From positions 1-46,602 of IMG/VR virus record IMGVR_UViG_3300032236_001956: a DNA stretch of 46,602 nt; one strand, written 5' to 3'. Position numbers and translations under genes: made by a program. Positions 3,034 to 16,616 of the stretch are shown piece by piece; within the stretch, counting starts at the first letter, position 1; each line of letters starts with the position of its first letter. The stretch is from a virus. The notes beneath the pieces are model-generated. The model did not search any database, had not been told where the DNA came from, and saw nothing but the letters and a program-made list of their open reading frames with translations.

Positions 3034-3186
3034 ATGTGGTATTGGATTTTGATTGGGCTGTTGTTTGGCCCGGGTATTTTCAAGTTTATGCTCAACACCG
3101 GCGACGCGCTGGGTGCAATTTTACTTTTTATGTTTGTTGTAATACTAATAATTGGACCCTTCTACTACCTTTTTGGACCTTTATAG
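3034..3186 (+). CDS. small membrane protein, 50 residues
   Basis: ATG at 3034, stop TAG at 3184-3186. The product is strongly hydrophobic with two predicted membrane segments, WYWILIGLLFGPGIFKFML near the start and GAILLFMFVVILIIGPFYYL near the end. It starts 8 bases after the helicase stop; AAGGA lies about 14 bases upstream, which is long. It is followed 10 bases later by another membrane protein gene. Small paired membrane proteins of this kind in phages can serve lysis, lysis timing or superinfection exclusion, but nothing in the sequence decides between these. Confidence 0.55.
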   Translation: MWYWILIGLLFGPGIFKFMLNTGDALGAILLFMFVVILIIGPFYYLFGPL

Positions 3187-3196
3187 GATAGAAAAA

Positions 3197-3721
3197 ATGA
3201 AACTTCTACAGCTTGTTGTTGCTCTGCTATTGGTAAGCACCCCTGCATGGGCCTATTTAGACAGCGGTGGTGAGCTCATATGGGGATCATTTCTGCTGAT
3301 GATCCCCGCTCTGATACTGTTCTTCGGAGGCTGGGGACCCATTGCCATATGGGTGGGCGCAATTCCAGCAATGGGCATGATTTATGGATTTCTTGTGCTA
3401 TTCAACTTTACAGGAGAGAATCCACGTCAAGAATCTATATTCACAGCCAACAGCCACTATCACATCAGTGTAAGGGAAGCTGCCAGACTTGATGCAATTT
3501 ATTCAGGAGCCGAGTGTCTTGACGGCAGAGGTTTAAATATTTGCACAAAGGAGTATGTAAGATGTTGGAAAGACAACATCTGCGCAGGTCATTTCAAACA
3601 GGTCTATCAACAGCGAGCTCGTGAATTGGCTGCCAATCCCAATGCATTCCAGCCTGGCAGTCAGATGTGCAAGGAAGAATATACTGGTGATACTGTTAAT
3701 CAACGCCACAGGTGTTGGTAA
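3197..3721 (+). CDS. exported/membrane protein with Cys-rich C-terminus
   Basis: The start at 3197 gives a clear signal peptide: MKLLQLVVALLLVSTPAWA with an AWA signal peptidase site. Then come hydrophobic segments (about residues 28-65) and a 100-residue hydrophilic tail with six cysteines, in contexts such as AECLDGRGLNICTKEYVRCW and DNICAGHF. Cysteines in an exported tail suggest disulfides in the periplasm. The total is 174 residues. The stop at 3719-3721 abuts the stop of the minus-strand hub gene, so the two transcription units converge with no spacer. I do not recognise the family; a host-envelope role such as superinfection exclusion is only a guess. Confidence 0.6.
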   Translation: MKLLQLVVALLLVSTPAWAYLDSGGELIWGSFLLMIPALILFFGGWGPIAIWVGAIPAMGMIYGFLVLFNFTGENPRQESIFTANSHYHISVREAARLDAIYSGAECLDGRGLNICTKEYVRCWKDNICAGHFKQVYQQRARELAANPNAFQPGSQMCKEEYTGDTVNQRHRCW

Positions 3722-13676: not shown

Positions 13677-14180
13677 TCAGCTTGCAGACAGCCGGGCTAT
13701 GGCATCACGGTTGTCTGCAAACAGCTTTTCAAACTCTGTAACAACATAACCCTTGTATCGGCAATGATTTTCCACCGTCAAAGTATCCAAATGTCTTGCA
13801 TCAAACGCAGCAAACGCACCACGTCGGTTTATGCGAAACACCACCACCCAGAAATCTTCCTGATCACAAACCATGACAGCCTGGTTGATCCATTTGTCCA
13901 GGATGGCAATGTCTTCGTTCTTGAGCAGGGCATGAAAGGGAAAATCAGCATAGAATTTGCTCTCGATGACCAGTCGTTGCATGTTAGTGGGTGGAATCAA
14001 ATCAGCTTTGAATGTGGCAATCTGCCCGGCATCCATTGTGGCAGCACGATGAATATTTTTGCCGCCCAGGAAGGCTCCGCTGTTGGGCACCCGGATAAAT
14101 TTGGCTTCATATAGCTTGCCGAGAAAGTCGGCAATCTTGCGTTCGCCTGTGTTGCCTTTGGCTTTTTGTGCTGTGGACAT
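13677..14180 (-). CDS. PD-(D/E)XK-like nuclease, possibly junction resolvase
   Basis: The ATG at 14180 was chosen because AGGA stands 5 bases upstream and a late promoter lies at 14204-14211; the frame extends further without an RBS. The product has 167 residues. An N-terminal GERKIADFLGKLY helix precedes RVPNSGAFLGG, then KADLIPP and LVIESKFY, the D...(E)xK spacing of PD-(D/E)XK nucleases. The layout resembles small phage Holliday junction resolvase-like proteins. T4 uses the unrelated endonuclease VII for that step, so this could replace it during packaging, in keeping with late expression. The substrate is inferred. Confidence 0.55.
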   Translation of the reverse strand: MSTAQKAKGNTGERKIADFLGKLYEAKFIRVPNSGAFLGGKNIHRAATMDAGQIATFKADLIPPTNMQRLVIESKFYADFPFHALLKNEDIAILDKWINQAVMVCDQEDFWVVVFRINRRGAFAAFDARHLDTLTVENHCRYKGYVVTEFEKLFADNRDAIARLSAS

Positions 14181-14203
14181 ATTTCCTGATCCCTGTTGTT
14201 TGT

Positions 14204-14211
14204 TATTTACC
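14204..14211 (-). promoter_or_regulatory. T4-type late promoter
   Basis: GGTAAATA on the minus strand. The predicted +1 at 14198 gives an 18-base leader with CAGGAAAT before the nuclease start at 14180. Confidence 0.65.
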
Positions 14212-14215
14212 GCAA

Positions 14216-14245
14216 TTGACTTTGCCTGGCGAAACATACAATAAT
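14216..14245 (+). promoter_or_regulatory. possible early-type promoter of the TnpB-like gene
   Basis: TTGACT (14216-14221) and AATAAT (14240-14245) with 18 bases between; TACAAT at 14237 with a 15-base spacer is an alternative. The following TAGATCAAGGA resembles the ATAGAGCAAGGA leader of the early genes. The neighbouring minus gene uses a late promoter, so the two genes would be expressed at different times. Confidence 0.45.
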
Positions 14246-14264
14246 AGATCAAGGAACCACGATA

Positions 14265-15056
14265 ATGAATCAAACAAGCACATATCATCGCAAAAATACC
14301 TGGCAGAAAACGTTCGATGTAACAGCCAACGAGGCACAGGCACGCACACTGAATCATTTCGTCAAGAACGAACTGGCATATTATCAGTTACTAAGCGGTC
14401 AATTGGGCATACGCATGCGTGCATTTCCCGAAGACTTCATCAACAACACACCCAGTTTAGAGCGGCTGTGGTTGTTTGCAGCCAAATATAATGTCACGGC
14501 TGCGCAACTGAAAGCACAACCGCAGAACAAATGGCCCACAGACATTGTGGGCTCCTGGGGCGCCATGTGGAATCGCAATGGAGAATATCTGCTGTCAAGC
14601 GGAGCAGAAACCATTATGAACCTCATGGCAACACCCTGCCATCTTCATGCCGATGTGCGTCGCAACATTGCCGAAGAAGTATTGAGCAGCATCAAGCACC
14701 AAGCTGAGATTTTGCATGCCGCTCAACACACCATGGAACTTCGCAGTGCGGTGCAAACACTTCCCGAGCATGATCATTTCACCAAGAGGCATGTTCAAGT
14801 GCCACGGCATTTGGTAAAGTGCATCTTCAATGCAGTGAAAGGCCAAAGTGAAATCACAGTGCCCTACTGCAAGGAGCCCTTGATTATTCCACAACAAGAT
14901 ATTTCCGAAAACAAATGGGATATCATGGTGATCAGCCAGGTAAATAAAGAGGCTGACAAAAACAACATGCTGCAACTCAGTCTCAGAACATCACGCAACA
15001 AATATCTCATTACATACACCGACGGTCAACGTCCCAATCGCCTCCCCAGAATGTAA
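14265..15056 (+). CDS. unknown protein with TnpB/Cas12-like ends, no RuvC domain
   Basis: The product has 263 residues and a start fixed by AAGGA 9 bases upstream. The N-terminus WQKTFDVTANEAQARTLNHF followed by VKNELAYYQLLSGQL has the strand-then-helix pattern with a conserved Gln seen at the start of TnpB/Cas12 (RLYP...Q, then YN). A helical middle (about 60-180) follows. The C-terminal 75 residues (ITVPYCKEPLIIPQQ, KWDIMVISQV, LQLSLRTSRNKYLITYTD) look like the second half of a WED-type barrel. The protein ends where RuvC-I would begin, so it could bind an RNA but not cut DNA. No DED nuclease motif, zinc ribbon or transposon end is present. Immediately downstream lie about 490 noncoding bases rich in stems. 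The fold assignment is by eye and uncertain; an unrelated phage protein remains possible. Confidence 0.4.
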   Translation: MNQTSTYHRKNTWQKTFDVTANEAQARTLNHFVKNELAYYQLLSGQLGIRMRAFPEDFINNTPSLERLWLFAAKYNVTAAQLKAQPQNKWPTDIVGSWGAMWNRNGEYLLSSGAETIMNLMATPCHLHADVRRNIAEEVLSSIKHQAEILHAAQHTMELRSAVQTLPEHDHFTKRHVQVPRHLVKCIFNAVKGQSEITVPYCKEPLIIPQQDISENKWDIMVISQVNKEADKNNMLQLSLRTSRNKYLITYTDGQRPNRLPRM

Positions 15057-15491
15057 TAATAGGCACCCCATAGGCACATAATTTATCCCACATACTGGCA
15101 CTATCATTAGCAGCGTAAGGCTGCCGGCGCCCAAGGATTTCAGCGATCACACTGCGCCCGGAGGAATCATCAGATCAGCCTCTGCCAGAAGAATTCAGAT
15201 AAAAGGACCACAACTCTGACAGACATGTCATTTGTGGTGTTGTAAACAGATGTTTGGTAGTCTGTTACAGCAGCTTGGACAACCATAACCGTACGGACCT
15301 TTCACAGGTCGAAGAACATATCCACAAGCAGGGAATTCGGCGTACCGCCCCGCTGCCGCAAGGCTAGGATGCTACCAAATGGCGGAAGCGACTCACATGA
15401 TTGCGCTCCGACCGGATCTTTTTCCGCGTCGGGAAAGTCATGGCTCACGATCTACATGAATGCTAATGCTTCGCCAATTAAAATTAAAAAC
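15057..15491 (+). ncRNA. candidate large structured noncoding RNA
   Basis: No reading frame of useful length occurs here on either strand, although genes are otherwise packed end to end. Many local stems can be drawn: 15110-15124 (GCAGC/GCTGC), 15124-15161 (CCGGCGC with a G-rich partner), a two-tier hairpin 15207-15238 (ACCACAA/TTGTGGT outside TGACA/TGTCA), 15242-15268 (8 bp with one bulge), 15296-15310 (GACC/GGTC), 15351-15390 (CGCT-G-CCGC with GCGG-A-AGCG) and 15408-15432 (CCGAC and CGGA with TCCG and GTCGG). ATAGGCAC occurs twice at the 5' end (15059 and 15070). The plus strand is favoured because the minus operon has its own terminator at 15492-15523. It could be a standalone RNA or the 3' part of the upstream gene's transcript. 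No family was matched. Confidence 0.45.
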
Positions 15492-15523
15492 GATTTGCAA
15501 GTTACGCTAGTAACTTGCAAATC
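15492..15523 (-). terminator. intrinsic terminator of the gp26-like operon
   Basis: A perfect 14-bp stem, GATTTGCAAGTTAC with its complement, around a 4-base loop. On the minus strand it is followed by GTTTTTAATTTT, a good U-tract. It ends the minus-strand operon 24 bases after the last stop. In the plus direction no U-tract follows directly, so it would be a stable 3' hairpin. Confidence 0.8.
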
Positions 15524-15547
15524 AGTGGTTAGGCTTGCCTAACCACT
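15524..15547. terminator. second perfect hairpin next to the terminator
   Basis: AGTGGTTAGG and its complement (10 bp, 11 if the GC next to the loop pairs) lie base-to-base against the terminator hairpin and touch the stop codon of the minus-strand gene. Two stacked perfect hairpins are more than termination needs; it may protect an RNA 3' end. Confidence 0.55.
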
Positions 15548-15765
15548 TATAACAATGATTTTTTATCGGGATTCATGGAAGCATAATGTTTTTCAATCAC
15601 CTTGCTCATGATCTTGCGTTGGTCCCATGTAAGCAACCAGGCATCATTATAGCCCAATCCACCTTGCATGTAAAACACCAAACTAGCAATATCCGTTTCA
15701 ATAAGTTTCCTGTTGGATTCCATGCTCTTGAGAAGTTCTCCTATTAATTCGGGATCACCTGTCAA
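15547..15765 (-). CDS. small tail/baseplate assembly protein
   Basis: The 72-residue product begins MTGDPELIGELLKSMESN and ends WDQRKIMSKVIEKHYASMN. The pattern of a short acidic helix, then GYNDAW and an HY motif, resembles small proteins that accompany gp26-like or tape-measure genes in T4-like phages and are thought to act as assembly chaperones. Its ATG overlaps the stop of the gp26-like gene by 4 bases (ATGA), so the two are translationally coupled. The function is inferred from position only. Confidence 0.6.
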   Translation of the reverse strand: MTGDPELIGELLKSMESNRKLIETDIASLVFYMQGGLGYNDAWLLTWDQRKIMSKVIEKHYASMNPDKKSLL

Positions 15766-16616
15766 GAGCGTTTGGCGAAAAAACTTATGGGATCATAGCT
15801 TACATTGTCTTGCCATGTAAATTGGCAAGATTCGCATTGAATGGATATCTGTTTACGTGGACCGCATTTATTTAAATCATCAACCGCTTGCATGACTTTT
15901 TCTGCCTGTTGATTAGTGATATTCATGAGCCATTCGGTAATAAATGCAGGGTCACTAACATGCTCATTGGTTGATAAGATTTCAACACTGGTAATGCTAC
16001 CTGCTACCAATCTATATGTAAGCAAACTGATGCGATCCACTGCTTCTGCCATTATTTCGGCACGGGCGAATTCGTTGGGATTGGGATTGTTGGCATCAAA
16101 CGCTCTCAGGATTTTTTCTTCTTCAAATTCCCGCTGTATAAAGATGCTGCGTTGTTGGAAGTTATAGGGTTTTACGTGTACTCGCAAAGTTTCATCAATG
16201 CTAACCACACCATCTTGATTATCAATCATGGTTTGTCCATCTAGTATCGATTGACATTGTAAATCAAAATTGCATTCAGCACCACAGCTGGGGCATATGC
16301 GATTGATTTCCATTGCACCGTTATTGCTGGCCATTTTCATGCCCACAAATATTGCCTCGAGGTCAGGCATCAACAGCGCATTGACATTGTGAACGTCTGG
16401 AACACAGTTCTGTATAACCTTTTTCAAAGCTTCTCCGTTAAGCATGGCATCTGGTGTATTCAACAATACATCATCTCTGGCTGTGAGGCCCAAGATCGCA
16501 ATTTCATTATTGGCAGTTAAGGTAATGTCCTGTGGTTGATACCATTTTCCTTGAGTAGGCAGCGCAATATATGTTGAAGCTTGACGAAAGTAGCTTTGCA
16601 GGGGGTTAGGTGTCAT
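15762..16616 (-). CDS. 26: baseplate hub protein gp26-like
   Basis: The 284-residue product begins with YIALPTQGKWYQPQDITL, then ILGLTARDDVLLNTPDAMLN, and has CPSCGAEC about 110 residues in and CESCQFTW near the end. This is the pattern of the family annotated as gp26 baseplate hub subunit in cyanophages and other T4-like phages. The two Cys pairs probably bind one zinc. T4 gp26 is shorter (208). It is co-transcribed with the small assembly gene from a late promoter at 16650-16657 and lies back to back with the tape measure gene, as baseplate hub genes often do. Confidence 0.75.
   Translation of the reverse strand: MTPNPLQSYFRQASTYIALPTQGKWYQPQDITLTANNEIAILGLTARDDVLLNTPDAMLNGEALKKVIQNCVPDVHNVNALLMPDLEAIFVGMKMASNNGAMEINRICPSCGAECNFDLQCQSILDGQTMIDNQDGVVSIDETLRVHVKPYNFQQRSIFIQREFEEEKILRAFDANNPNPNEFARAEIMAEAVDRISLLTYRLVAGSITSVEILSTNEHVSDPAFITEWLMNITNQQAEKVMQAVDDLNKCGPRKQISIQCESCQFTWQDNVSYDPISFFAKRS

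Follow-up and report, generated by a model that had tools for sequence, protein, structure and literature searches.

A 46.6-kb virus contig from IMG/VR, called the window here (the whole stretch of DNA that was analysed), encodes at positions 15057-15547 a conserved, covarying, large noncoding RNA of about 400 bases that is new to Rfam. The RNA lies directly behind the gene for P0001, a 263-aa protein. What might such a pair do? Our preferred account, held tentatively and at somewhat less than even confidence, is that this is a new phage large-ncRNA locus whose two products act as a nuclease-free ribonucleoprotein of Cas12f/TnpB-like ancestry. RNA and P0001 would be transcribed together from a candidate promoter just upstream of the P0001 gene, P0001 would bind the RNA, and the protein itself would correspond to the WED-REC-WED part, the half that holds the RNA, of a Cas12f/TnpB-like ancestor, with RuvC lost or never present. 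We infer co-transcription, binding, and Cas12f ancestry, and any effect on host or phage would likewise be an extrapolation; packaging, host takeover, and transcription regulation, which an earlier note on this DNA had floated as roles of the locus, are unsupported. To our knowledge, few large structured RNAs have been described from phages and they lack an explanation; a new one linked to a gene whose protein has a candidate RNA-binding fold offers a direct handle on function.

A covarying RNA directly behind a protein gene

The window covers part of the genome of a PA5oct/Phosso-like jumbo myovirus. Its gp46-like exonuclease is ~45% identical to the versions in Sinorhizobium phage Phosso and the PA5oct-group Pseudomonas phages, and its gene order (late sigma factor, gp47, gp46, resolvase, hub, tape-measure-like protein, portal) is that of Phosso and PA5oct. 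P0001 and the RNA occupy the slot between the resolvase and the baseplate hub (Table 1). The 490 bases after the P0001 gene (15057-15546) had been described in the earlier note as free of genes, and so they are, because the next credible gene is the small ORF on the minus strand from 15547; the longest open frames inside the region are short and differ among relatives. Most gaps between genes elsewhere in the window measure 106 bases or less. A larger span without an assigned gene, 687 bases at 3035-3721, contains ORFs, such as 3152-3721 on the plus strand.

Table 1. Features of the resolvase-to-hub slot and its borders, in window coordinates
Feature	Position	Strand	Basis
RusA/PDDEXK-type resolvase gene, one slot border	13677..14180	-	ATG at 14180; PHROG 244 E 4e-15, Pfam PF24608 E 7e-20 (both on the longer ORF 13677-14357)
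Sigma70-like promoter TTGACT-N18-AATAAT, candidate for ORF and RNA jointly	14216..14245	+	Consensus scan, 10/12
P0001, 263-aa protein without known family	14265..15056	+	ATG start; homologues 55-57% identical in L022, L015, L024, and L035
Structured RNA core	15057..15467	+	Closing helix 15073-15077 with 15460-15464
Most conserved RNA segment, CAGCTTGGACAACCATAACCG ... CAAGCAGGGAA	15268..15420	+	Basis of covariance model R3
14-bp hairpin, GATTTGCAAGTTAC-GCTA-GTAACTTGCAAATC	15492..15523	+	Covarying; 7 two-sided pairs
Second hairpin, AGTGGTTAGG..CCTAACCACT, stacked directly on the 14-bp hairpin	15524..15547	+	Fold and covariation
Small ORF beside hub gene, other slot border	15547..15765	-	Phosso and Atu_ph07 have homologous small ORFs adjoining the hub
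Baseplate hub gene, synteny anchor	15762..16616	-	PHROG 150 E 1e-15; 61 phage records

Close relatives of the window, all IMG/VR metagenome contigs, were retrieved with the gp46 protein and a 21-nt motif as queries, and four of them are distinct (L022, L015, L024, and L035). In each of the four, the protein (~56% identity) and the noncoding stretch behind it (~70%) are retained at the same position. The resulting five-sequence RNA alignment has 132 consensus pairs, with 95.9% of pair cells paired, and two-sided changes occur at 25 pairs, against 7.5 in shuffles, a count that none of 500 shuffles reaches; when partners were slid as a control, at most 3 pairs carried two-sided changes. Most of these changes set the window apart from its relatives. 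Covariation thus bears out the earlier proposal, made from one sequence, that the region is structured, and does so at the level of RNA. Folding energy of the single sequence gives z -6.2 with the tandem hairpins at 15492-15547 included and z -2.35 once they are removed, so the case for RNA outside the hairpins rests on covariation and not on fold energy. A further contig (L010:4946-5977) has a gp46 that is 97% identical; downstream of it only a weak match to the resolvase is seen, on the other strand, possibly a chimeric end.

Known RNA families do not account for the region: the window stretch has no Rfam match at the gathering threshold or even at E 5, and no tRNA or tmRNA was found. An exact-motif scan with the conserved RNA segment matched only the window-type family, and covariance model R3, which scores 130 bits in the window, had no matches in other jumbo-phage genomes.

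Could the region be merely DNA between convergent genes, with the tandem hairpins stopping transcription and the remainder serving as spacer? The flanking genes do converge, and a minus-strand terminator-like site for hub-side transcription is predicted at 15524-15491, overlapping the 14-bp hairpin. Against this, the ~400 nt upstream of the hairpins are ~70% conserved and carry compensatory changes in many helices; this covariation largely refutes the spacer explanation, which we regard as barely credible.

The predicted fold of P0001

P0001 has no sequence match in PHROGs, Pfam, PADLOC, PDB sequences, or annotated phages. An IpaD-like PDB sequence match (E 0.07) was dropped when the family profile did not reproduce it. 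A structure search of BFVD returned an uncultured phage's protein with 78% identity and, in another virus, a remote structural homologue, A0A345MN37 (16% identity, E 1.4e-7, probability 1.00).

AlphaFold was run on P0001 aligned with its four homologues, and on the L035 homologue. The P0001 model (pLDDT 63.7) has a helical half followed by a C-terminal beta half; the better model, that of the L035 homologue (pLDDT 72.6, pTM 0.69), places a strand at 13-20, helices at 22-154, and strands at 175-252. Both are thus predicted to contain a helical bundle and a C-terminal beta-barrel, with an N-terminal strand coming first in the better one. Cas12f proteins have the domain order WED-REC-WED, and the strand-helices-barrel order of the better model matches it, a resemblance that is suggestive, not significant. 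With the P0001 model, the top five PDB matches in Foldseek are Cas12f chains, CnCas12f1 first (E 0.11, prob 0.15), and with the L035 homologue CnCas12f1 is again first (E 0.020, prob 0.80, 263 columns). AsCas12f and CasLambda2 stand near the top in both searches and Cas12k in the second, all within its first seven. Neither model has a PDB match at E <= 0.001, and TM-scores are low, at 0.18-0.33. The earlier assignment of P0001 to a TnpB/Cas12-like family therefore survives in part: Cas12f leads the structural ranking in two models, but no match reaches E <= 0.001 and neither sequence nor profile comparison returns one. The WED halves of TnpB that the note had read from the sequence itself were not recovered, with no match in Pfam, PHROGs, PADLOC, or PDB sequences.

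We also aligned P0001 by HMM-HMM comparison (hhalign) with a 14-protein TnpB profile that combines InsQ from E. coli IS609 with relatives in phages, and found no homology (prob 0.7%, in the wrong register); power is low, because the query alignment, of five sequences, is shallow (Neff 1.4), making this a weak test. The note's description of P0001 as lacking RuvC is correct: no RuvC domain, active or inactivated, is present, since the 263-aa protein ends after the predicted barrel and the next 490 bases are noncoding.

The arrangement invites comparison with TnpB, Cas12f, and the TldRs, which arose through mutational inactivation of RuvC and some of which are phage-borne (PMC13418256). As in those systems, a structured RNA lies directly 3' of the protein gene, the predicted fold runs strand-helices-barrel, and Cas12f tops the Foldseek ranking; P0001 differs in having neither RuvC nor TnpB profile similarity, its fold matches are sub-significant, and no guide was detected. 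A TldR-like repressor, in which a guide within the RNA would steer P0001 to DNA, draws on the protein-then-3'-RNA order, the Cas12f-like ranking, and the existence of phage-borne TldRs (PMC13418256). We nevertheless judge it quite improbable: the entire RuvC is absent rather than mutationally inactivated as in TldRs (PMC13418256), the end of the RNA is made up of stacked hairpins and shows no evident guide, and a search of the phage's own 46-kb fragment for a guide or antisense target gave no match longer than 12 nt, equal to shuffles, in addition to the missing TnpB profile similarity. A 31-nt match to Halocynthia phage JM-2012 is AT-rich, lies in an unrelated context, and was treated as chance.

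Coupling of protein and RNA in a slot with varied contents

How closely is the RNA tied to P0001? The earlier note had asked whether the two co-occur, and they do, with the RNA just 3' of P0001 at 5/5 distinct homologue loci, all close relatives; co-occurrence is nonetheless weak evidence, because all P0001 homologues belong to one close group. No P0001 homologue was found in 12 jumbo-phage records. The joint transcription that our preferred account proposes would start at the sigma70-like site before the P0001 gene, which is itself weak evidence because the consensus scan found 3 promoter-like sites where 2.2 are expected from shuffled sequence.

Large noncoding regions also occupy this slot in PA5oct, Phosso, GAP32, XbC2, and 121Q. 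That of Phosso comprises ~1.0 kb of noncoding sequence between the resolvase and an RNase HI-like gene and that of PA5oct ~1.5 kb with tiny ORFs only, and the gene-free slots measure 0.77 kb in XbC2, 0.80 kb in GAP32, and 0.8 kb in 121Q. Atu_ph07 has no clear counterpart of the slot, and Vibrio phage 2.275 carries a protein gene there instead. The Rak2-like slot copy, like the window RNA, has the resolvase on one side and the small ORF/baseplate hub on the other, and it runs in the direction opposite to the hub gene. By eye, a long hairpin stacked beside a shorter one near the 3' end is common to the PA5oct-type copies, the Phosso slot, and the window slot. HMMs and three covariance models gave no cross-matches among the window, PA5oct, and Rak2-like RNA types. 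The likeness in slot, strand, size, and terminal hairpins is consistent with either deep common descent or a slot tolerant of RNAs. A motif apparently shared with PA5oct (AGCAGCTT..CCATAAC..GCAGG) was noticed by eye and set aside when the models did not confirm it.

These neighbors in other phages bear on a serious rival, which we also hold as possible at a little under an even chance: like GOLLD and ROOL, the RNA would function by itself or with other proteins of the phage or host, and P0001 would be a mere neighbor in a slot that accepts varied cargo. Arguing against exclusivity of the pair, the slots of PA5oct, Phosso, and the Rak2-like phages hold large RNAs or noncoding regions with no P0001 homologue, and in Rak2-like phages and PA5oct the RNAs occur as 3-5 scattered copies with no common flanking protein. 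There is precedent as well in GOLLD and ROOL, which are encoded by phages, are large (~600-800+ nt) and highly structured, have no known function, are represented in Rfam, and build RNA-only cages (PMC12286853). The window RNA is likewise large, structured, and phage-encoded, but it has no Rfam match and lies directly behind a conserved protein gene; moreover, the slot RNAs are not beside tRNA genes, and those of Rak2-like phages number 3-5 per genome. What speaks for a bound pair is the junction itself: in 5/5 genomes the 5' element of the RNA (AGGCAC) overlaps the P0001 stop codon or begins within a few bases of it, and the promoter scan found no plus-strand promoter-like site directly before the RNA. 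In addition, no homology was detected between the window-type RNA and the other slot RNAs.

A broader reading would extend our preferred account to these phages: jumbo phages would have domesticated, minus any nuclease domain, the half of a Cas12f/TnpB-like protein that holds RNA, together with a ~400-nt RNA, as a scaffold ribonucleoprotein, with the other slot RNAs (3-5 dispersed copies) as diverged relatives or functional replacements. We think this rather unlikely, and were it true, it would define a new class of phage ribonucleoproteins.

Dispersed RNA copies in cultured jumbo phages

The RNA of the Rak2-like phages, present in 3-5 copies, is conserved, covarying, and absent from Rfam. The GAP32 slot sequence recurs at ~5 sites in GAP32, CBB, XbC2, and PHA46, on a single strand throughout. 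Copies include L008:7044-7847 on the minus strand and, in GAP32, those near 35.3k, 98.8k, 261.5k, and 340.7k, with others in CBB, XbC2, PHA46, 121Q, RaK2, and XaC1. In a 23-sequence alignment, 43 of the 86 pairs show two-sided changes, 93.6% of cells are paired, and the covariation score is 0.435, against 0.165 when shuffled and at most 0.107 when slid. Covariance model R1, which represents one domain, finds 5 copies in GAP32, 5 in XaC1, 4 in 121Q, and and 3 in RaK2; window-type loci, PA5oct, Phosso, and Atu_ph07 yield no match. Low-scoring Rfam matches to small sRNAs on GAP32 were treated as chance. The CBB and RaK2 papers do not mention noncoding or intergenic RNAs, and no mention of the multi-copy family was found in the literature searched. 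Because such copies occur in cultured phages, for example E. coli phage 121Q and PA5oct, knockouts and pull-downs are feasible in laboratory systems.

No partner protein common to the copies was found in GAP32 and PA5oct, beyond the orthologous flanks of one GAP32 and RaK2 copy. A TATAAT box lies just upstream of many Rak2-like copies, and in GAP32 and XbC2 the slot copy terminates in an AACCAGC..GCTGGTT hairpin. A leader or antiterminator role for all copies is disfavored, as the GAP32/XbC2 slot copy runs toward convergent genes and has this terminator hairpin. Spacing between copies is rather even in GAP32, CBB, XbC2, and PHA46 (~53-84 kb; P <=0.003 in these four related genomes, a post hoc value subject to shared ancestry and given no weight here) and less so in 121Q, RaK2, and XaC1. 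A role as replication origins is unsupported, because the GC skew of GAP32 does not inflect where the copies lie.

PA5oct has three copies of a large-RNA type of its own (L085:755-1505, L004:15180-16400, and L086:690-1460). Its 246-kb copy is ncRNA004 (NC_071039, 246116-246734), recorded as a 'putative lncRNA, based on RNA-Seq data' and the sole copy annotated as RNA; the slot copy is annotated with tiny ORFs. Like the window RNA, ncRNA004 is a large RNA of a related jumbo phage, and its paralogue occupies the window RNA's slot; it differs in that neither sequence comparison nor covariance models relate it to the window RNA, and PA5oct has no P0001 homologue. A loop motif like AGTTTACGAA is common to the long 3' hairpins of PA5oct (L004:16310-16385) and Phosso (L003:16200-16290), in RNAs that are otherwise dissimilar.
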